Below, one piece after another: positions 1,341 to 16,828 of a stretch of 26,972 bases of DNA; position 1 is the first letter of the stretch; every line of letters begins with the position of its first letter. The translations under genes and the position numbers were made by a program. A model generated the notes under the pieces. That model did no database searches. It was given only the letters and a program-made list of their open reading frames with translations, and was not told where the DNA came from. The stretch comes from a virus: positions 1 to 26,972 of IMG/VR virus record IMGVR_UViG_3300009514_000579; one strand, 5' to 3'.

Positions 1341-1348
1341 TATTTATA
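1341..1348 (-). promoter_or_regulatory. T4-type late promoter box upstream of the tail tube gene
   Basis: A perfect TATAAATA on the minus strand, 21 nt before the ATG at 1319 and overlapping the stop codon of the epimerase gene. It gives the tail tube gene its own late promoter, independent of the carbohydrate operon upstream. Confidence 0.8.
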
Positions 1349-2195
1349 AAAGCCCGTTAATATACGTCCGAATATCCCCCTTTGGTTTGTAGTTTAAATC
1401 TCTAATACTGTCCCTAATATCAGCAAACACAACATCATCTTCACCCGCCCTAGCAGGTATGTATTCAACTTCAGTATTGAACATTTGCGCTATCTCATTG
1501 ATAGAATAACTCTTACCAGATGCTAGATCGTAGGTATTACCCAATGGATTCTCTGCCATTTTAATCATACCATCCACTACATCATCCACATGAACAAAAT
1601 CCCTTTTTTGGGTTCCCCTGCCTGTAATAGTTAAAGGTTGACCTGCCTTGTACTGTCTTTCAAATATCCCGATTACTGTTGCAAAATCACCCGTTTCCAT
1701 CTGCCGTTTTCCATATACATTGTGAAATCTGGCTATGGCCATTGGAACACCATACACCTTATGATACATCCTACAGACTTCCTCCCCTGCCCATTTAGAG
1801 AACGAATACGGGCTTAAAAAAGTATCTTCATATCGGGTACACGAACCAGCATAAATCAGCTTGGCACCCGTTAAACGGGCCAACTCACATATTCTGGATG
1901 TTCCTTGTACATTTACTTCAATGGTTCTATCTGGATCTTTCAGGCTAGGTTGAATCCTAGACACCCCTGCCAGATGATATATGATGTCATAATCAAACGC
2001 CAATCCCTTTTCATCAAATATGTTACATATATCCACAATCTTATATATGCCACCAACCTCACTTATATTTTCCCACTTACCAGTAGATAAATCATCAACA
2101 ACATCAATATCAAAACTATTATGTTCTAACATCAGCCGATCCACTAGATGGGAGCCTATAAAGCCCAACCCGCCAGTTACTAGTATGTTAGCCAT
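1344..2195 (-). CDS. NAD-dependent sugar epimerase/dehydratase (extended SDR)
   Basis: A 283-residue extended short-chain dehydrogenase that should act on a nucleotide-activated sugar. Visible are the NAD-binding GGLGFIG (residues 8-14), an acidic pair after beta-2 (VVDDLSTGK), AGSC with the catalytic Ser at 118, and Y130-SFS-K134 as the YxxxK dyad. FVHVDDVVDGMIKM and NTYDLASGKSYSINE match the C-terminal substrate-binding part of UDP-glucose 4-epimerase-like enzymes. The protein is somewhat shorter than GalE (about 338). It overlaps the preceding glycosyltransferase gene by 8 nt and is the last gene of the carbohydrate run. Substrate cannot be set; a UDP-hexose 4-epimerase or a 4-keto reductase are the main options. 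Confidence 0.85.
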   Translation of the reverse strand: MANILVTGGLGFIGSHLVDRLMLEHNSFDIDVVDDLSTGKWENISEVGGIYKIVDICNIFDEKGLAFDYDIIYHLAGVSRIQPSLKDPDRTIEVNVQGTSRICELARLTGAKLIYAGSCTRYEDTFLSPYSFSKWAGEEVCRMYHKVYGVPMAIARFHNVYGKRQMETGDFATVIGIFERQYKAGQPLTITGRGTQKRDFVHVDDVVDGMIKMAENPLGNTYDLASGKSYSINEIAQMFNTEVEYIPARAGEDDVVFADIRDSIRDLNYKPKGDIRTYINGLL

Positions 2196-3270
2196 TTTGC
2201 AAATTCCAGTTTTTATCTTGGGTGACTATGCAATCAAGACCTTTTTTCTTGTATTTTTTCTTAATTTCTTTAATAGTTTCGTTGAATATTTTCTGATTAC
2301 CATCCAGATCAGGTAAATTCACTATGTAATGGAAAATATGGTATGTATTCAGCTTATCATCATCAACCTCTCTGTAGTCACATATGTATTTGATTCTGAA
2401 GTTAAAGTCAGCATCTTCTAGCCCGTAACCCTTGTACCTAGTATCAAAGCCTTTGATTTTATAAAAAGATTCCAAATGTATCAAGCCATTTCCAGGTGCG
2501 ATACCAAATTGAGTTCTGGATACATCCTGATTCTTTTCGTAGGACTTAACATAATCTTTATACTTATTTGAGTATAACGAATCTCCCAAATTATAATTGT
2601 GGAACACCACCCTGACAGGTCTTGAAAAATCCACATGCTTCTTAATGGATTTTATAAAAGTGGGCGGGTAAATCAAATCAATATCCGACAAAATAAAATA
2701 CGGAGTGGTTACTAACATACACACCCCATAATTTATTGTTTGGGGTTTACAATAAGTTTCCACATCCAAGGGTTTGTGGATATACCTTACATTACATATG
2801 TCCTTAATATCATTCTCGATACACCTCTTGGATGTGTTACATACGCATATATTAACTTCCTGATTAACTATGCTCTGTATAGAACATCTCAATCGTTTTA
2901 AGGCCCGTTCTCTTTCAACACCATCATTAAAATGGAAAGGATACAACATATCAATTGTGCATTTTTTGTGGCTCCGTTTCCAAAGTTCCGAATAAGGATC
3001 TTCAAAACACATCTTCTTATAACGTAAACTTCTTTTGAATAATTGATTCCGCTCTACCTGTAAACTGTGGACTAGATTATTTACTCGATCCAATTCTTTA
3101 TTCTTAGCTTCGATATTATTGATAATCAAATCTGGAACCACAAATAAAACATCAACATAGTTATTAGCCACCTGTGGGGGGATTTTATAAAATCTCCCAT
3201 CAGCAGGAATCTTTTGATTTAACTCCTGTATGAAAACCGCTTCCTTTGTTTTATTGAACACTATGGTCAT
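2188..3270 (-). CDS. Glycosyltransferase (GT-A/GT2, galactosyltransferase-C type) with extra N-terminal domain
   Basis: A 360-residue protein in three parts. Residues 1-50 form a short, probably beta-rich domain that I do not recognise. Residues 52-85 (IEAKNKELDRVNNLV onward) look like a coiled coil. From about 105 onward is a GT-A catalytic domain with the metal-binding SDIDLIYP and the acceptor-side motif GFDTRYKGYGLEDADF, typical of chondroitin-synthase and GalNAc-transferase-like enzymes. The start at 3270 has GGAG 6 nt upstream. The gene overlaps the ColD-like gene by 20 nt and the epimerase by 8 nt, which implies translational coupling. Donor and acceptor are unknown. Confidence 0.82.
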   Translation of the reverse strand: MTIVFNKTKEAVFIQELNQKIPADGRFYKIPPQVANNYVDVLFVVPDLIINNIEAKNKELDRVNNLVHSLQVERNQLFKRSLRYKKMCFEDPYSELWKRSHKKCTIDMLYPFHFNDGVERERALKRLRCSIQSIVNQEVNICVCNTSKRCIENDIKDICNVRYIHKPLDVETYCKPQTINYGVCMLVTTPYFILSDIDLIYPPTFIKSIKKHVDFSRPVRVVFHNYNLGDSLYSNKYKDYVKSYEKNQDVSRTQFGIAPGNGLIHLESFYKIKGFDTRYKGYGLEDADFNFRIKYICDYREVDDDKLNTYHIFHYIVNLPDLDGNQKIFNETIKEIKKKYKKKGLDCIVTQDKNWNLQNG

Positions 3271-4435
3271 TAATTACTCCATTAATAACATTACAAACCC
3301 TAGTAATATCGTCTGGTTCTAACTGTGGATGATTAGGAACATACAACCCGTACAAGTCCACCAACTCTGCAAACGGAAGTTTGGTTTCGTACTTCAACTT
3401 CCCTCTCAGGAAAGGCTGAAATTCCATTGACCCACATACCAACGGTCTTACCTCAATATTATTCTCTACCAGTTTATCGGATATTTCATCTGCTCTAGGA
3501 TGAATAATCGGGTAGGCAAAGTTCGATATGGTGGCTAGTGGATTCTCAATCGGGATTTTCCAGTAATCGTTTTTAATTAATTTATCATACAATCTAAAAT
3601 TTCTATCTCGTTTCTGACAAATATCATTCAATTTATCCAACTGCCTTATCCCAATATATGCCTGTAAATCTGTAGCCCTGATGTTAAACCCTGCATAATA
3701 AAACGAGTACAGAGATTTGAATTCTGATATGTTGTATTCCTTCCTCAACTCCATCTGGCTTTCAGTATCAATATCCCTATCCCATCCATGACTTCGGATC
3801 ATTTTAAGAATATTATACACCTCTTTATTATCCGTACACACCATCCCACCTTCTATAGAACTTATATGATGGCCGAAGTAAAATGAAAAAGTGCTCATTA
3901 AACCTAGTGTCCCTGTTTTGCCCTTATATGTTGTAGAACCTACTGATTCACACGAATCCTCAAGAATAGTGACACCATATTGCACACAAATCTGTTCTAT
4001 ATCTTTGCTACAAGGAAAACCCAATACATGAACCATGATTAGTGCGGAAACATCAGGATGTTCTTCCAGTATTTCTTTCAGACTCTCAGGCTCAACCCCC
4101 AAAGTCTTATCATCACACTCACATAGTATAGGGTCGAATCCCAACTGGATTAAGGGAGCTACTGTTGTAGCCCACGACACAGCAGGGACAATTATTTTAT
4201 TACTTCTGGGATTGCCGTACAACTTGTAGGTATAAACCATTGCCAAGTTAGCCGAACTTCCCGAATTAACATAGACGGAGTATTTACGGCCCAACCAATT
4301 AGACCATTTCTGCTCAAAGATTTCTGTTTTCTTTCCCTTGGTAAGTCTGGGATTTGTTTTCAACCATTCAATTAAATGATTAACATCTTCTTTATCAATC
4401 GTATCTTCAACGAGATTTATTCTGGTATGCTTCAA
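3251..4435 (-). CDS. colD: ColD-type PMP-dependent sugar 3-dehydratase (DegT/DnrJ/EryC1 family)
   Basis: A 394-residue fold-type I PLP protein of the sugar-aminotransferase family. SGSSAN (58-63) and ILED with D160 fit cofactor binding. The key feature is FSFYFGHHISSIEGG: His189 stands where aminotransferases have the Schiff-base Lys. That His marks ColD (GDP-4-keto-6-deoxymannose 3-dehydratase) and RfbH/E1. The four-Cys iron-sulfur motif of RfbH/E1 is not visible, which favours ColD. ColD removes the C3 hydroxyl using PMP and glutamate. The start is a TTG at 4435; no better in-frame start exists near the N-terminus, and the first residues already belong to the family. It overlaps the fucose-synthase-like gene by 29 nt. 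Together they fit GDP-L-colitose synthesis; a different 3-deoxy sugar is possible. Confidence 0.85.
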   Translation of the reverse strand: MKHTRINLVEDTIDKEDVNHLIEWLKTNPRLTKGKKTEIFEQKWSNWLGRKYSVYVNSGSSANLAMVYTYKLYGNPRSNKIIVPAVSWATTVAPLIQLGFDPILCECDDKTLGVEPESLKEILEEHPDVSALIMVHVLGFPCSKDIEQICVQYGVTILEDSCESVGSTTYKGKTGTLGLMSTFSFYFGHHISSIEGGMVCTDNKEVYNILKMIRSHGWDRDIDTESQMELRKEYNISEFKSLYSFYYAGFNIRATDLQAYIGIRQLDKLNDICQKRDRNFRLYDKLIKNDYWKIPIENPLATISNFAYPIIHPRADEISDKLVENNIEVRPLVCGSMEFQPFLRGKLKYETKLPFAELVDLYGLYVPNHPQLEPDDITRVCNVINGVINDHSVQ

Positions 4436-5339
4436 TTGTTTTCACCAACCCATCTTCAATTTCAGTTTTTGCTTTCCAACCCAACTTATTTATCGCACTT
4501 ACATCTAGACACTTTCGCATCATTCCATCTGGCTTGTCTGTGTTAAAAGTAAAACTACCATCCCAACCAACAATGTCTTTAATTGCATATGCCAATTCCC
4601 CTATCGAAATATCTTCACCCATACCAATATTTAAAAATGTATCTGTCCTGTTTACATTCTTCATTGACCAAATCATTCCATCAACAAAATCATCTATGTA
4701 CAGAAACTCACGCCTCTGGTTACCCGATCCCCATATCTCCACATTAGTTTCATTGTTCACTTTCGCATCACAAATCTTTTTTACCAGTGCAGAAAGAACG
4801 TGACTGGTGTCTAGGTTGAAATGGTCACCCGCCCCGTACAAGTTACAAGGCATCAGGGAAACAAAATTTGTATCAAATTGCTTGTTTGCATATTCACACA
4901 ATTTCAATCCTGCTATCTTAGCCAAACCATAGCCTTCATTGGTTGGCTCCAAAGGAGCTTCCAAAAGGTATTCTTCCTTCAAAGGCTGAATATAATCCTT
5001 GGGATAAATACAACTCGAACCCAAAAATAAAACCTTCCTCACTTCTGTTTTAATACACGCATCAATAATATTATTCTGCATTACCAAATTATCATACAGG
5101 AACTTGTAAGGATTATCCATGTTGGCCTTAATTCCACCAACAACCGCTGAACAGATGAATACATAATCAAACCTATAAAACAAGGAACCCAACGCCGTTT
5201 CCTTTTCTAAAAAATCACATCCGTTACTTTTGCTATAACCATGAACTCTAGTATAACCTTCTTCCTTCAACTTCTGGTATAATGCGTTACCAGCAAAACC
5301 AGTATGTCCCGTTACCAAGATTTTACTATCTTTTTTCAT
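4407..5339 (-). CDS. fcl: GDP-L-fucose synthase / GDP-L-colitose synthase (Fcl/ColC)
   Basis: A 310-residue extended SDR, close to E. coli GDP-fucose synthase in length. It has GHTGFAG (11-17) for NADP(H), VVGGIKAN, GSSCIYP, EPTNEGYGLAKIAG, NLYGAGDHF and REFLYIDD, all family hallmarks. The residues required in E. coli Fcl (S107, C109, Y136, K140, H179) are all present, shifted by one: S108, C110, Y137, K141, H180. The enzyme epimerises C5 (and C3 for fucose) and reduces the C4 ketone of a GDP-4-keto-6-deoxy sugar. The homologue ColC does this on the 3-deoxy product of ColD. Because a ColD-type gene overlaps it directly, colitose is the favoured product over fucose. Its ATG overlaps the NeuB-like stop codon (ATGA). 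Confidence 0.9.
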   Translation of the reverse strand: MKKDSKILVTGHTGFAGNALYQKLKEEGYTRVHGYSKSNGCDFLEKETALGSLFYRFDYVFICSAVVGGIKANMDNPYKFLYDNLVMQNNIIDACIKTEVRKVLFLGSSCIYPKDYIQPLKEEYLLEAPLEPTNEGYGLAKIAGLKLCEYANKQFDTNFVSLMPCNLYGAGDHFNLDTSHVLSALVKKICDAKVNNETNVEIWGSGNQRREFLYIDDFVDGMIWSMKNVNRTDTFLNIGMGEDISIGELAYAIKDIVGWDGSFTFNTDKPDGMMRKCLDVSAINKLGWKAKTEIEDGLVKTIEAYQNKSR

Positions 5340-6172
5340 TTTCTCAACTTTTCCTTAACTGGTACTTCACTTTCTTCAACCTTAATTTCACCATCACCCA
5401 TACCAGTTTCAAAGGCTTCAATAAAATCTTTTATCTTCAAAACACCTGCCGATTCAATAGATGCTGATTGATCACTACCATACATTGTACGATCTGTTGT
5501 AATGTGATACTCAATCATCTTAGCACCCATTACTTGAGCTTGAAGAATAAAAGCAATACCTGATGAATGATTAGAAAAACCGATTTTATAATGATCCCCG
5601 TATTCCTCTTGTAATGTTTTTATCTTAGCCATGTTCATTTCATTCATTGGTGTTGGGTAGCTAGACACACAGGATAAAACATGTTCCACTTGACCACCCA
5701 GTAATTCCAAACAATCTTCTATTTCATCCTGAGTGCTCATTCCAGTGGCCACAATAATATTTGTTTTGGTTCCTCTGGTGGCTTCATAAACCTTACTCAT
5801 TAAATCATTATTAGTCACCATTGCAGATGCAACTTTAATGTAATCGGGTTTGTACTGCATAAGGAAGTCAACGGATTTTACATCCCAAGGTGAAGCAAAC
5901 CACCCTATACCTTTCGAGTTACAATAATAATTTATTTCATCAAATTCTTTTTTACCAAACTCAAGTCCTTCCTTTTGCAACCTGTTGGTTGTTCCCCAAG
6001 GAGATTCCCTGTACTTGTCAAGTTCTTCTTTAGTATAAACATCTTCAATAGTTCTCTTTTGGAACTTAACATATTTACAACCACCTAAGATTGCCAGATC
6101 AATCATTTTCTTTGCAAGGTCTAAATCCCCGTTATGATTGATCCCTATTTCGCCAACTAAAATTGTTTCCAT
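5336..6172 (-). CDS. neuB: NeuB-like nonulosonic acid synthase lacking the SAF domain
   Basis: A 278-residue TIM-barrel enzyme of the sialic/legionaminic/pseudaminic acid synthase family, which condenses phosphoenolpyruvate with a six-carbon amino sugar. Landmarks are EIGINHNGD, VKFQKR, ASPWD, YIKVASAMVTN, VATGMST, SCVSSYPTP and IGFSNHSSG. The two metal-binding His of NeuB map to H202 and H223 (IEYHIT). The usual GxDH near the barrel end is GSDQ. NeuB proteins are normally about 340-350 residues with a C-terminal SAF (antifreeze-like) domain that closes the active site of the dimer partner. This one stops in the linker (GDGEIKVEESEVPVKEKLRK). An AGGAG 7 nt before the ATG at 6172 sets the start; an in-frame ATG at 6199 lacks one. 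Confidence 0.88.
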   Translation of the reverse strand: METILVGEIGINHNGDLDLAKKMIDLAILGGCKYVKFQKRTIEDVYTKEELDKYRESPWGTTNRLQKEGLEFGKKEFDEINYYCNSKGIGWFASPWDVKSVDFLMQYKPDYIKVASAMVTNNDLMSKVYEATRGTKTNIIVATGMSTQDEIEDCLELLGGQVEHVLSCVSSYPTPMNEMNMAKIKTLQEEYGDHYKIGFSNHSSGIAFILQAQVMGAKMIEYHITTDRTMYGSDQSASIESAGVLKIKDFIEAFETGMGDGEIKVEESEVPVKEKLRK

Positions 6173-6179
6173 TTCAATT

Positions 6180-6184
6180 CTCCT
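6180..6184 (-). promoter_or_regulatory. Ribosome binding site fixing the NeuB-like start
   Basis: AGGAG on the minus strand, 7 nt before the ATG at 6172. It overlaps the end of the cupin gene and rules out the longer reading that starts at 6199. Confidence 0.75.
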
Positions 6185-6512
6185 ATTCAATTTTTCCACT
6201 TTCTTCTGTTCTATAAGAATCCGAATCTATGTGTGTGGTTGATACTTCATATATTAAACTGTTTTCCATGCCAGTAAACCTGTGTTCCGTATTTGGTGCG
6301 ATATGTACCTGATCTCCCTTTGACAAAAAGAAAACCTTTTCGCCAACCTCCATTTTCACATGACCCGAATGTATTATAAAGGTTTCGTCTTTAATTTTGT
6401 GGTGGTGCATACTACACCTGTATCCCTTATTAAGATGCAGTTTCTTGAAACAATACTTGTCAGTATTCACCAACCATTCCTCTTTGCCCCAAACTTTTTC
6501 TACTTCAATCAT
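6183..6512 (-). CDS. Single-domain cupin, sugar-isomerase-like
   Basis: A 109-residue beta-barrel cupin. Motif 1 holds H36-H37-H38 and E43 (MHHHKIKDETF) and motif 2 holds H77 (PNTEHRFTG), enough to bind one metal ion. The N-terminal KVWGKEEWLV and the C-terminal EVSTTHIDSDSYR resemble the cupin half of mannose-6-phosphate isomerase type II and lyxose-isomerase-like proteins. Small cupins of this type are commonly found beside NeuB genes in surface-sugar clusters, as here, where the NeuB-like start lies 10 nt downstream. AGGTG lies a few bases before the ATG. The substrate is not known; an isomerase or epimerase role on a phosphorylated or nucleotide sugar is the likeliest. Confidence 0.8.
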   Translation of the reverse strand: MIEVEKVWGKEEWLVNTDKYCFKKLHLNKGYRCSMHHHKIKDETFIIHSGHVKMEVGEKVFFLSKGDQVHIAPNTEHRFTGMENSLIYEVSTTHIDSDSYRTEESGKIE

Positions 6513-6976: not shown

Positions 6977-8662
6977 CTATTCTTTCATATCAAGAATCTT
7001 TTCAATGTTATCCGTATCAATATATTCCCTAGCCTGTAAGAAATTCTCCATTGACATGGCCCCAAAATTTAAAGGTTCCCCATCACTGTTATGTAATACC
7101 TTTGTCGCATCATCCAGTTCCAATACATATGTATGAAATTTATCATCACAAATCGGCTCACCGTTATCATCATAACGGATACCGAAATTCTTAGTCAGCA
7201 TTTCCTTTGAAATAGTATCTTTGAACATAGCGGTGCCAGGGTACGCTGTCACTGTAAACATCTTCCTATTTACACTGTCAAACGCCTGTTGATATTCAAG
7301 AGTGCCTTTCGTTAAACCCTCTGTCATAAACTCTTGTTGCCATACAATAAAAGCCACACTGGTTTTCAGGTCTTTTAAAGTTTCCATAGGATAACTCATT
7401 ATCCATGTACAATTGGCATGTATACCAACATCCCTGCAATTCCTGATACCATTAAACATGGTAGTGGGAAAATCATACACTTCCCCGTTCACCTTTGTTG
7501 GTGTAAACCCGTTCTTTAAAATGTGACCACCTTTATTCATTCTTATCAATGTATTCTCTGAAGCAGATTCGGCCCCGAATCCAATGTAAATACATCCCGA
7601 CTTTGACATGGCCTTCACCCGTTCATCCGCTTCATCCAATCTAGTATGGGTACCCCACCTGATTGAATCCCTGTCAAAGCCATATTCAGAAAACACCCTC
7701 ACCATATCATTTATTCTAGGAACACTCACAGCAAAATTATCATCAGGAAATCCAATAAAGTCCACGTTGTATTTGTCTACATATTCTCGCATCTGTTTTG
7801 CAATATGTTCAGGTGACCTGATTCCATAATTCCGTTCACCTTGAGCACCACGATAACAGAAAGCACAAGCATAAGGACATCCCCTACTACTGACTGTTGT
7901 CAGACTTCTGTCCATTGTAAAGGATGTTGAAGAACTGTTGTTCGCCTTGCTTCCCCACACTGGTATCTTGATATAATCTTCAATAATATTATGACCAACT
8001 GGATCTGATTCTAACAAATCCCAAGAAGCATATGGAATATCATCCAGATTCTTAGGTCTATTTCCGCTATATAAAAATCTTGGTCTTTCTTCATCTGACA
8101 AGAAATAAGGACTCCATTTTAATATATTACCTTTAGAATATTGTCCACACTCTTTAGCCACCAATGAGTCTCTAGCAATCGAAATAATAACATCATCACC
8201 CTCTGAATGTGCTATACCATTCATCTCTGGTATCCAATTAAACAATCCTTGTTTTAATTCGGTTGCTAACCCCCCACCCGTTACCAGAAAACAATCAGGT
8301 AAAAGATTTCTAATTATTTTAGCGACATTTTCCTGCCATCTCAAAGTTGTTATCATACCAGAAAAGGCAACCAAATCTGGTTCTCCTTTTTGATGTATAT
8401 GTTTTTCAATCAGAAATTCAGATTCTTCCAATGTGAGGTGTCTATGAGAATTATCAGAAGTCTTAATTCGGTATCCATTCAAATCAATAATAGCAGGTTC
8501 GGCTCCATATTTCCTAAGTATCGAAGCTAGGATTCCTGGCCCTTCTGGCGGGGTGTTCGGCATAGCAGATTCTCTCAACGGCATGTTAATAAACAGAACC
8601 TTCAATCCAGAAAATTCATTATGACCAATAACGCCATTAATATCAAATGGGTGTCCTACCAA
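6977..8662 (-). CDS. B12-binding-type radical SAM enzyme
   Basis: A 561-residue protein with two recognisable parts. Residues 20-165 look like the cobalamin-binding Rossmann domain of class B radical SAM enzymes (KVLFINMPLR, PPEGPGILASILRKYGAEP, VTGGGLAT), but the DxHxxG cobalt-ligand motif is not evident. Residues 255-500 hold the radical SAM barrel with SRGCPYACAFCYRG, where C262, C266 and C269 bind the 4Fe-4S cluster. Such enzymes methylate or rearrange unreactive carbons. In this operon, a sugar or pathway intermediate is the likely substrate, but this is inference. The start is TTG at 8662, overlapping the stop of the SDR gene (TTGGTAG) with GGGGG upstream. Starting at the next Met would remove the first beta strand. 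Confidence 0.85.
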   Translation of the reverse strand: MVGHPFDINGVIGHNEFSGLKVLFINMPLRESAMPNTPPEGPGILASILRKYGAEPAIIDLNGYRIKTSDNSHRHLTLEESEFLIEKHIHQKGEPDLVAFSGMITTLRWQENVAKIIRNLLPDCFLVTGGGLATELKQGLFNWIPEMNGIAHSEGDDVIISIARDSLVAKECGQYSKGNILKWSPYFLSDEERPRFLYSGNRPKNLDDIPYASWDLLESDPVGHNIIEDYIKIPVWGSKANNSSSTSFTMDRSLTTVSSRGCPYACAFCYRGAQGERNYGIRSPEHIAKQMREYVDKYNVDFIGFPDDNFAVSVPRINDMVRVFSEYGFDRDSIRWGTHTRLDEADERVKAMSKSGCIYIGFGAESASENTLIRMNKGGHILKNGFTPTKVNGEVYDFPTTMFNGIRNCRDVGIHANCTWIMSYPMETLKDLKTSVAFIVWQQEFMTEGLTKGTLEYQQAFDSVNRKMFTVTAYPGTAMFKDTISKEMLTKNFGIRYDDNGEPICDDKFHTYVLELDDATKVLHNSDGEPLNFGAMSMENFLQAREYIDTDNIEKILDMKE

Positions 8663-11884: not shown

Positions 11885-13052
11885 CAATAACCCCCTCTAA
11901 AATCTTCAGTCCTGTAACAAGATGTTGATTTGTAATAGTAAGCGGTGGCCCCAACTTAACTGATTCTATTCCAGTATGTACCAGTAAAACCCCATGATAC
12001 ATACATTCCATACATACCTTGGTGGCTAGTTCTTCATCCTTAAAAATAAGACTCGCCAACATCCCTTTACAATTAATCTCTTTAATCACCTCATGGTGTT
12101 TTCTAGAAATGGTATGTAGCATATCACTGAAAATCTTTTCTTTGACATTCAATTCTGGAGTTATTATTTTTTCCAATTCCTCCAGCACCGCTAGTCCAGA
12201 AGCGCAACACAACGGATTCGCAGAATGGGTACTGCTCATTTCCCCGACTTCAGGCAGATCCATAATATCTTTTCTTCCCAAAACTCCTGACAACGGCAAC
12301 CCTCCACCGATAGCCTTTCCTATACATATCAAATCAGGTACAACATCATAATGCTGGTAACCAAACATTTTTCCCGTTCTCCAGAAACCTGCTTGTATTT
12401 CATCAAAGCAAACACAAACATTTCTAACCTGAAAATGGTCACACAAATCCTGTACATATTTCTTGGGTAAAAATCTAGCAGACCATCCCTGATAGGTTTC
12501 AATCATCACACCAGCAATTTCTGAAACATCAACTCTTAACTTTTTAAAATCTTCCAAGAAATCAGAATCCTTATCGGGAAATGGCAACTGAAGAAAATCT
12601 TCATGTTCATAAAAACCCGATCCTTTCATTAAATCTGCACCCATTGTTCTACCATGCATAGAACCTTGGAATGAAATAATTTTCTTCTTACCAGTTTTCA
12701 TTCTCATTAACCTGATAGCCGTTTCTGTAGCCTCTGTTCCTGATGAAAGTAAAAAGGCTTTCTCACAGAATGGGGGCGTAACCTCTATCAGCTTTTTCAA
12801 AAACTGATACCTTAAACTGTGTGGATATGTATAGGAATGTAACAACTGTTTATCTAGTGCTTTTCGTATCGCCCTTCTGACTCTCTTATTAGCATGGCCA
12901 ACATTCATCACAAATATCGTAGAAGTAAAATCAATATATTTCTTACCCATATCATCCGTAACCAGATCATTCTTGGCATTTTTCCACACAACGGGCAACA
13001 TAGGATGCATTGACTTCGGTTCCAACTTTCTTAACATCTTGAAAAAATTCAT
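11868..13052 (-). CDS. Class III PLP-dependent aminotransferase
   Basis: A 394-residue enzyme of the acetylornithine / glutamate-1-semialdehyde aminotransferase class. It shows SSGTEATE (103-110) for phosphate binding, SMHGRT, CFDEIQAGFWRTG with D218 against the pyridine nitrogen, and the Schiff-base Lys246 in CIGKAIGGGLPLSG. The catalytic set looks intact. Class III enzymes normally aminate aldehydes at chain ends, and homologues annotated as aminomutases occur in many surface-polysaccharide clusters beside cytidylyltransferases, as here. Its ATG overlaps the CMP-sugar synthetase stop (ATGA). It may aminate a terminal carbon of a sugar or make an amino-alkyl substituent; this is inference. 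Confidence 0.88.
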   Translation of the reverse strand: MNFFKMLRKLEPKSMHPMLPVVWKNAKNDLVTDDMGKKYIDFTSTIFVMNVGHANKRVRRAIRKALDKQLLHSYTYPHSLRYQFLKKLIEVTPPFCEKAFLLSSGTEATETAIRLMRMKTGKKKIISFQGSMHGRTMGADLMKGSGFYEHEDFLQLPFPDKDSDFLEDFKKLRVDVSEIAGVMIETYQGWSARFLPKKYVQDLCDHFQVRNVCVCFDEIQAGFWRTGKMFGYQHYDVVPDLICIGKAIGGGLPLSGVLGRKDIMDLPEVGEMSSTHSANPLCCASGLAVLEELEKIITPELNVKEKIFSDMLHTISRKHHEVIKEINCKGMLASLIFKDEELATKVCMECMYHGVLLVHTGIESVKLGPPLTITNQHLVTGLKILEGVIDDNKD

Positions 13053-13750
13053 CTTTTACTCACTAGGTATTCCAGATAATCAAATTCCTCCTGACTATCT
13101 ATTTCAACCGCTTTTTCTGTTACAAATTTATATACCATATTACCGTATGTTGTTTTAGTATCTATAATAGTTTTAACGGTAACAATATCAATATAACCAT
13201 TAGGAACATAACATACATCATATAATTCTTTAGGTTTATTTGCCCCCTCATGATCACCACCCATGTATGGTTCAATATGAACATTTGAAAAGCGTTCTCC
13301 AATCCTCACAGGTTTACACATTTTTTCAGGTGGCTCACTCAACACATGTACAGAACGCATTGACGAACATTTATATTTATTATCCAAAAAATAATTAATA
13401 GCTTTAGATAAAACGCTAACCTCCCGCAATGGAGTGGTGGGTCTTAACAAAACAATACCATCATTAATATCCAACTCCTGCGTATATATAAAATGAAGTA
13501 AATAATCCAAATCAACCGCCGTATCCGTACAACAAAAATCAGGTCTGGTTATTACTTTGGCTCCGTAGGAAGTTGCCAAATCCACATAATCCCCGCTGTC
13601 AGTAGTAACATAAGTCTCGATAATTTCTGGACAATTTAATGAATCATTAATCGAATATGCTAGGACAGGAAGGTTAGCCAACATCTTTATGTTCTTATTA
13701 GGAACGCTCTTTGACCCACTTCTAGCTGGAATTAAACTATAAATATCCAT
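13049..13750 (-). CDS. neuA: CMP-nonulosonate (acylneuraminate) cytidylyltransferase
   Basis: A 233-residue nucleotidyltransferase with the N-terminal CTP-binding IPARSGSKSVPNKN (7-20), LLRPTTPLR (102-109) and a C-terminal VEIDSQEEFDYLE whose D218 corresponds to a metal-binding Asp of CMP-NeuAc synthetases. It activates a nonulosonic acid by coupling it to CMP. Family members act on sialic, legionaminic or pseudaminic acid; the closest subtype cannot be set by eye. A run of G (AAGGGGG) lies 7 nt before the ATG. It lies directly between the GT42/MptE-like gene and the aminotransferase, overlapping both, which supports a shared nonulosonate pathway with the NeuB-like gene farther downstream. 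Confidence 0.9.
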   Translation of the reverse strand: MDIYSLIPARSGSKSVPNKNIKMLANLPVLAYSINDSLNCPEIIETYVTTDSGDYVDLATSYGAKVITRPDFCCTDTAVDLDYLLHFIYTQELDINDGIVLLRPTTPLREVSVLSKAINYFLDNKYKCSSMRSVHVLSEPPEKMCKPVRIGERFSNVHIEPYMGGDHEGANKPKELYDVCYVPNGYIDIVTVKTIIDTKTTYGNMVYKFVTEKAVEIDSQEEFDYLEYLVSKR

Positions 13751-15193: not shown

Positions 15194-16020
15194 TCAAGTC
15201 CTTTTGTCAAAACGTAATCTTTCTCATAAGTGGCCTGATCATTTTCAATGCCATAAAATTTAGTCTTATCAATAACATCTCCATCCAAAAATAATTTATT
15301 AAGTTTCTTTAAAGAAAACTCCTTTTTACTGGAGTGTCTGTTATATCCCGTTTGCGTAAGGTTATTGGCTATGTTTATTGTCTTAGATTTTTTCATACAA
15401 ATCATGTGATGTTTAAATTCTCCCCTATTTGAATTTAACATCCCTTCTGTATCATTCACATTTCCACGCCTAATCTGATTCATCCAATGTTTCAAAAAAG
15501 AAGTTCGATAAATGTGTGAATTAATACACGATGGATAATACCAATCAACTCTACCATCCCCCTTTGTCCAATCCCATTTATAAACACTATCTTCACCTAA
15601 TCGCATCACATCAAATTCTGGAATGTCACAATACAAATCTGCCGTATAACAATAATTCCCAATGTTGGTTCCTAGCCTGATCGATGCACAATGTATATTT
15701 TCATAGGATTTCAGAACATCTACCAACGGCTTAATTGAATGATCCCTGATAACAATTTCATCATCAACCAAGGTCATAGCGAATTCTTCTTCAAAATGAT
15801 TGACAATATTCTTAATATCTTCTATCAAAGTAGTCTCTGGAAACCAACTATGTTCAGGATACTTCTCAAATAATTTCATATACCCTTTGATAAAATTATC
15901 ATCCGAACCTTTGCAGACTATTTTGACATTATTTATCTCCTTGAAATTATCTTCAATGCTAGTCAGAAGCAAATCTAGCTGACATGCTCTGTCCTTTGAA
16001 AATATCAACACATCAATCAT
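15190..16020 (-). CDS. Glycosyltransferase-like protein (GT-A fold)
   Basis: A 276-residue protein beginning MIDVLIFSKDRACQLDLLLT, a typical first strand and helix of a GT-A glycosyltransferase. MTLVDDEIVIRD fits the DxD-like metal and nucleotide-binding site. Further conserved-looking residues (VDWYYPSCINSHIYRTSFL) would line the acceptor site. The start at 16020 is chosen because it opens directly on the first core strand; an in-frame ATG at 16056 adds 12 residues (ISRNSRRYW) that lie inside the GT10 gene. The ATG overlaps the GT10 stop by 8 nt. Donor and acceptor are unknown. Confidence 0.72.
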   Translation of the reverse strand: MIDVLIFSKDRACQLDLLLTSIEDNFKEINNVKIVCKGSDDNFIKGYMKLFEKYPEHSWFPETTLIEDIKNIVNHFEEEFAMTLVDDEIVIRDHSIKPLVDVLKSYENIHCASIRLGTNIGNYCYTADLYCDIPEFDVMRLGEDSVYKWDWTKGDGRVDWYYPSCINSHIYRTSFLKHWMNQIRRGNVNDTEGMLNSNRGEFKHHMICMKKSKTINIANNLTQTGYNRHSSKKEFSLKKLNKLFLDGDVIDKTKFYGIENDQATYEKDYVLTKGLE

Positions 16021-16828
16021 TATCCAATATCTCCTTGAATTCCTTGATATTTCCAATGTCGTTTTCCTTCATCCACTCAAACGCCTTTTCAGTCATATCT
16101 TCAAATTCATCCTTACCCATGTTCTTCAGGTAATCTTCTAGGGCAGAATCAGACGGAAACTTTCGATAATCAACATACAGTTCAGGCGGTATTCTTTCTT
16201 CAATATTGTAACACCCGTAATACACCCCTACAGTCTTGGACTTGAAACAATCTGTGATTTTCTCTGTGACATAATCCCAAGACCAAAGCTCATGGTATGC
16301 ATTCTCAAAACATAGGTTGAATTTGTACTCATTAAGTTTCTTTAATTTAGCTAGACTTGAGGGATAAGTTTCATGGGTTTCTGAACCTATCACACCCTTG
16401 TAATACAAGTCTAAATAAGGTATCTTTCCGTATGTGTGCTTAGTTATATTCTGGAAACTTTCAAACACCTCTATTCTCTTTCCCACCAAATCAAAATCAA
16501 CAGACTTGACAGAGAACCTGCATATCAGACAAATCCCGTCAATACGATCCTCAAAGGGAATAAAGGATTCCAGATTACTGTAGTTATCGAACAGCGGAAA
16601 ATTGGGAAGTTGTACAACATCAATCCCTATATTTTTATACTCCCTACAGAGCTTGCTGTTCCATGTATAGACCTTTTTATATTGCTTAACATTATCCACA
16701 AAATAATTGGACGGAATAATATTGGCGGTTTCTATCTGGACTAGTGAGGTTTCCTTATTTCGCCTTGAGGCAGTATCCATGAACACCATGTTCGGATACT
16801 CATTTAATGTCTTGGTATATTCACTCAT
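16013..16828 (-). CDS. GT10 (alpha-1,3-fucosyltransferase-type) glycosyltransferase
   Basis: A 271-residue protein with the GT10 signature in residues 169-225: KFNLCFENAYHELWSWDYVT followed by EKITDCFKSKTVGVYYG and RIPPELYVDYRKFPS. The corresponding motif in alpha-1,3-fucosyltransferases (FENS..DYVTEK...A...G.VPV.YG) binds GDP-fucose. Colitose is 3-deoxy-L-fucose, so a transferase of this family is the natural partner for the GDP-colitose pair encoded by the ColD- and Fcl/ColC-like genes in the same operon. Whether it uses GDP-colitose or GDP-fucose cannot be read from the sequence. Its ATG overlaps the stop of the preceding GT2 gene (ATGA). Confidence 0.85.
   Translation of the reverse strand: MSEYTKTLNEYPNMVFMDTASRRNKETSLVQIETANIIPSNYFVDNVKQYKKVYTWNSKLCREYKNIGIDVVQLPNFPLFDNYSNLESFIPFEDRIDGICLICRFSVKSVDFDLVGKRIEVFESFQNITKHTYGKIPYLDLYYKGVIGSETHETYPSSLAKLKKLNEYKFNLCFENAYHELWSWDYVTEKITDCFKSKTVGVYYGCYNIEERIPPELYVDYRKFPSDSALEDYLKNMGKDEFEDMTEKAFEWMKENDIGNIKEFKEILDND

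Follow-up and report, generated by a model that had tools for sequence, protein, structure and literature searches.

A candidate GDP-L-colitose branch in a marine T4-like phage and the gene linkage of its viral relatives

Two overlapping genes of a marine T4-like phage, here called colD and fcl, probably encode the final steps of a GDP-L-colitose branch carried by the phage, in which a ColD step would be followed by an Fcl/ColC step; we put the probability of this reading at roughly two in three. Colitose is a rare bacterial surface sugar, known from O-antigens. The reading is based on homology, fold, catalytic residues, phylogeny, gene linkage and conservation. Moreover, complete gmd-fcl-colD sets were found in many phages, cultured ones included, and this is worth more than the single stretch of DNA from which the analysis started.

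The sugar cassette and its nearest relative

The window, i.e. the whole stretch of DNA analysed, is a 26,972-base IMG/VR fragment of a marine T4-like phage (IMGVR_UViG_3300009514_000579). T4-like genes flank both of its ends, with RegA and the tail tube on one side and a baseplate wedge gene on the other, and a long block of sugar genes, all on one strand, lies between them. The nearest relative, L022, is found inside a 66.5-kb contig and keeps the sugar block nearly gene for gene. The features considered here are the following:

1344-2195, minus strand: extended SDR (PF01370, E 8.5e-45), final gene of its run, ahead of the tail tube gene; syntenic in L022 (64%)
2188-3270, minus strand: glycosyltransferase (Glyco_transf_7C, PF02709, E 2.4e-6), 20-nt overlap with the ColD gene; syntenic in L022 (48% identity)
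3251-4435, minus strand: candidate ColD-type GDP-4-keto-6-deoxymannose 3-dehydratase, 394 aa, TTG start; DegT fold, His189 for Lys
4407-4435, minus strand: overlap of both reading frames, 29 nt by ORF coordinates
4407-5339, minus strand: candidate Fcl/ColC-type C5-epimerase/C4-reductase (GDP-L-colitose synthase), 310 aa; matches GDP-L-fucose synthase structures (E 5.5e-74)
16013-16828, minus strand: GT10 (fucosyltransferase family) transferase, possible GDP-colitose user (PF00852, E 2e-14, 54 bits, cut-off 23.9)

The cassette also holds a NeuB-type synthase (5336-6199) and a CMP-sugar cytidylyltransferase-like protein (13049-13750), which suggest a separate nonulosonic-acid branch, and a radical SAM protein (6977-8662), part of which resembles a B12-binding region; its counterpart in L022 is 79% identical.

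The dehydratase and SDR candidates

The protein encoded at 3251-4435 belongs to the DegT/DnrJ/EryC1/StrS family (Pfam E 2.6e-62). In a sequence search of solved structures ColD came first (2gms, E 8e-55) and E1 second; the E. coli O55 ColD sequence is identical to PDB 2gms. The AlphaFold model (pLDDT 92.6) was compared by Foldseek, and ranks 1-10 were all ColD crystal structures, with a TM of about 0.87. As the preliminary description had pointed out, His189 stands in place of the Schiff-base Lys: it aligns to ColD His188, at a position that is Lys in ordinary DegT members, and this catalytic His is invariant across 49 aligned sequences. The signature residues W88, E163, H189, R220 and E328 match Trp88, Glu162, His188, Arg219 and Glu329 of ColD, the roles of Arg219, Glu329 and Trp88 in that enzyme being taken here from their conservation only; in RfbH these columns hold, among others, Phe, Asp, His and Cys. 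Phylogeny, proposed at the outset as a test of the assignment, was examined in a tree that set the E. coli O55 enzyme and ColD relatives from bacteria beside RfbH proteins and enzymes of the Lys type. The protein was placed within the ColD clade, together with the O55 enzyme, at an SH-aLRT of 97, which, for this and the other trees, all made by a quick method, is the only branch support, without bootstrap. On these sequence and model comparisons, the product is very likely a ColD-type dehydratase; since it is 36% identical to ColD, we infer its choice of substrate.

The preceding gene, at 4407-5339, had been described as retaining the five catalytic residues of GDP-fucose synthase, and it does: S108, C110, Y137, K141 and H180 correspond to S107, C109, Y136, K140 and H179 of E. 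coli Fcl. Nearly all ColD-linked SDRs examined keep this set: in an alignment of 55 sequences, reference enzymes among them, Cys, Tyr, Lys and His were kept in 55/55 and Ser in 51/55, the rest having Thr or Ala. The 29-nt overlap of the two genes was likewise borne out. The TTG codon, together with the stretch preceding it, recurs in the 72% relative L022, where the overlap measures 35 nt. Between the window and L022 the dN/dS was 0.07 for ColD, 0.10 for Fcl and 0.10 for a baseplate gene, with dS near saturation; since the pair is kept at such low values, it is under purifying selection and does not consist of chance ORFs. The gene order, colC before colD, is that of the E. coli O55 colitose cluster.

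The same SDR might be a plain GDP-L-fucose synthase that feeds the GT10 transferase, the dehydratase working in a separate branch or competing for the same intermediate. Neither the catalytic residues, all five of which are common to both enzymes, nor the tree separates Fcl from ColC, and the window protein shares 39% of its residues with E. coli Fcl and 38% with ColC. In addition, phages with gmd and fcl but no ColD are common, so that the SDR alone is uninformative about colitose, and GDP-fucose synthesis has been proposed for the cyanophage S-SCSM1 (PMC9602691). On the other hand, the SDR frame overlaps that of ColD in the window and in 30 of the 63 viral loci having an Fcl-like gene; the nearest SDR groups are ColD-linked, the window protein falling with the SDR of a 642-kb phage and with SDRs adjoining colD in Bacteroidia (SH-aLRT 97); and on the GDP-L-fucose synthase equivalog model (NF047922) it scores 347 bits, below the NCBI cut-off of 500, as does authentic ColC (304). 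We therefore regard a dedicated fucose synthase as unlikely, and a partner of the ColD-type enzyme as the better reading.

Viral ColD relatives, linked genes and alternative substrates

A profile search of viral contigs gave 167 confirmed relatives in IMG/VR, of which 80 were kept, and His replaces the Schiff-base Lys in every sampled viral relative. In the tree they form a largely virus-specific clade, within which the single close relative from bacterial genomes, a Flavobacteriaceae MAG contig, is nested. The coupling of ColD with an Fcl/ColC enzyme, put forward for the window in the preliminary description, holds over the viral family, usually with Gmd. After dereplication at 92%, an Fcl/ColC-type SDR was found near ColD in 36/50 viral loci, and Gmd lay within 10 kb in 37/50, as against 11 of the 68 viral NeuB loci without ColD used as a control (odds ratio 14.7, Fisher p 3e-10); a further control of Lys-type DegT loci was dropped, as only two were returned. 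All located Gmd and Fcl partners are on the same strand as ColD, often overlapping. Gmd-SDR-colD operons occur also in Bacteroidia.

The SDRs that accompany viral ColD come from at least two distant lineages, and thus the viral ColD genes appear to have swapped SDR partners. The ColD proteins of the cyanophages S-CAM7 and ACG-2014f fall in a different subclade and that of the 642-kb phage among bacterial sequences, a placement which suggests that viral ColD was acquired at least three separate times. One ColD-like gene (L013:9995-12589, in the 308-kb IMGVR_UViG_3300044712_002679) is split directly behind its catalytic GHHM motif by an intein that contains a LAGLIDADG endonuclease (Intein_splicing in Pfam, E 6.4e-17).

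As for Gmd itself, which the preliminary description had reported missing from the window, none was found among the ORFs of the 26,972 bases, where SDR matches are limited to 1344-2195 and 4407-5339; the former was considered as the missing Gmd and rejected, its match to TIGR01472 reaching only E 2.4e-5. The search proposed for the rest of the genome gave a divided answer: no Gmd was found in the 66.5 kb of the nearest relative, which is a fragment like the window, whereas other viral ColD records mostly carry it, with a strong Gmd in 44/50 records holding ColD relatives (43 viral, 1 bacterial MAG). Scans with the baseplate and SDR genes for a larger relative of the window phage gave at high identity only the contig of L022, and a 264-kb contig reached via NeuB holds neither ColD nor Gmd. 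Since Gmd is seen neither in the window nor in its nearest relative, the substrate of this lineage must come from the host or from an unseen part of the genome, and supply by the host is plausible.

The substrate bears on a further possibility, that the product is a GDP-3,6-dideoxyheptose or another GDP-4-keto-6-deoxy sugar, as in Campylobacter capsules, rather than colitose. In C. jejuni, C3-dehydratases that share 62-67% identity with the E. coli ColD work on GDP-6-deoxy-4-keto-heptose (PMC10440746), so that sequence leaves the C6 substituent unfixed. Against a heptose route, the heptose gene gmhA was found in only 3/43 viral records with a ColD-type enzyme; the linked dehydratases are recognised by the model for GDP-mannose 4,6-dehydratase, above its cut-off in 11/50 records; and C. 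jejuni uses a separate epimerase, whereas the window SDR keeps the Cys/His epimerase pair. Given the scarcity of gmhA we consider a heptose product unlikely, and colitose remains the preferred product.

A CDP-sugar 3-dehydratase of the E1/RfbH type, which would carry an iron-sulfur cluster and open the way to abequose, paratose or tyvelose, is very improbable and was rejected: the best NCBIfam model for the window protein is indeed RfbH (NF011936), and the S-CAM7 ColD is annotated as CDP-4-keto-6-deoxyglucose dehydrase, but the score of 196 bits is below the cut-off of 423 and authentic ColD also scores best on this model (263 bits), the RfbH-specific Cys columns are R220, I222 and L230, in agreement with the absence of cluster cysteines already recorded in the preliminary description, the tree sets the protein apart from RfbH (own clade, 99) and from Lys-type enzymes, and the linked dehydratase is Gmd. 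A PLP aminotransferase of the perosamine or PseC type, as the DegT superfamily and the name "aminotransferase" given to relatives by phage annotation pipelines would have it, is hardly credible and was discarded because of His189 and its equivalent in all sampled viral relatives. RfbH-type proteins do occur in these searches: at L012:12100-13401 one of 458 bits (cut-off 423) adjoins ColD and Fcl genes on a phage contig, which thus holds two kinds of sugar 3-dehydratase together, and RfbH-clade dehydratases with the three RfbH-specific Cys columns kept were found in Synechococcus phage S-H68 (L119:4869-6164) and marine virus AG-345-D19 (L121:4821-6125).

The proposed pathway and known systems

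ColD-type enzymes are reported to use His as the base, without a [2Fe-2S] cluster, the intermediate being hydrolysed and PMP regenerated by glutamate (PMC8987622). By analogy, in the 3251-4435 protein, acting as a PMP-dependent 3-dehydratase, PMP would form a Schiff base with GDP-4-keto-6-deoxy-D-mannose, provided by a Gmd of the host or by an unseen one of the phage; His189 would take a proton, upon which the C3 hydroxyl would leave, and hydrolysis would give GDP-4-keto-3,6-dideoxymannose. Glutamate would restore PMP, and an iron-sulfur reductase would not be needed. The 4407-5339 protein would then epimerise C5 and reduce C4 with NADPH, yielding GDP-L-colitose, which a transferase of the cassette could move onto a host or virion glycan. 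We infer this chemistry, the substrate and its supply, and the transfer by a cassette enzyme, from the comparisons described above.

The identity of the transferase is a separate matter. The preliminary description had joined the synthesis of colitose to its transfer by GT10; the coupling of dehydratase and Fcl/ColC enzyme stood, and the GT10 gene is present, on the same strand as colD and fcl and 82% identical in the syntenic L022, but no relative of it was found in ColD loci other than those of the window and L022. GT11-like genes are usual there, with 18/50 dereplicated ColD loci having one as against 3/68 NeuB controls, and the colitosyltransferase of O55, WbgN, is a GT11 enzyme accepting both GDP-colitose and GDP-fucose (PMC11987014). 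For this reason the link between GT10 and colitose is weak, and GT10 as the colitose transferase is no more than a guess.

Since dozens of aquatic phages carry the complete gene set, phages may build colitose themselves, and a colitose-making phage could give its infected host a new coat, for example to shut out other phages, or put the sugar on its own fibres. It is conceivable, if on the whole doubtful, that aquatic phages combine a long-diverged viral 3-dehydratase clade with exchangeable Gmd and Fcl/ColC enzymes in order to make their own 3,6-dideoxyhexose glycans, and that the gmd-less lineage of the window taps a host intermediate or has changed its substrate. The viral enzymes also widen the known range of ColD-like biocatalysts. 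In the open-access literature, as covered by titles and the starts of abstracts, we found no description of phage-borne colitose synthesis and nothing on colitose together with viral metagenomes; an earlier mention elsewhere is possible.

Compared with ColD of E. coli O55:H7 (2gms), the window enzyme shares the fold, the catalytic His, the lack of cluster cysteines, the equivalents of Arg219, Glu329 and Trp88 and the position after colC; it differs in belonging to a separate, mostly viral clade, in having Gly188 for Ser187 and in that gmd is not seen nearby. The GDP-fucose genes of S-SCSM1 (PMC9602691) are, like those described here, a phage-borne pathway for a sugar derived from GDP-mannose, a 3-dehydratase not being named in the part of that account consulted. 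The cultured Synechococcus phages are closer: S-CAM7 carries gmd-fcl-colD-GT11 and ACG-2014f gmd-fcl-colD with a GT11-like fourth gene, the Gmd of both scoring above the curated cut-off. Their products are annotated piecemeal as fucose synthetase, CDP-sugar dehydrase, aminotransferase or hypothetical; thus a complete but misleadingly annotated set exists in cultured cyanophages, which makes direct testing possible. Two genes past GT11, S-CAM7 encodes an adenylylsulfate kinase (L118:8708-9277), which suggests sulfated glycans. These phages differ from the window in the presence of gmd, in the GT11-type next gene and in the ColD subclade, but they share with it the phage genome and the pair of dehydratase and SDR; in both, tail fibre genes follow directly on the sugar genes.
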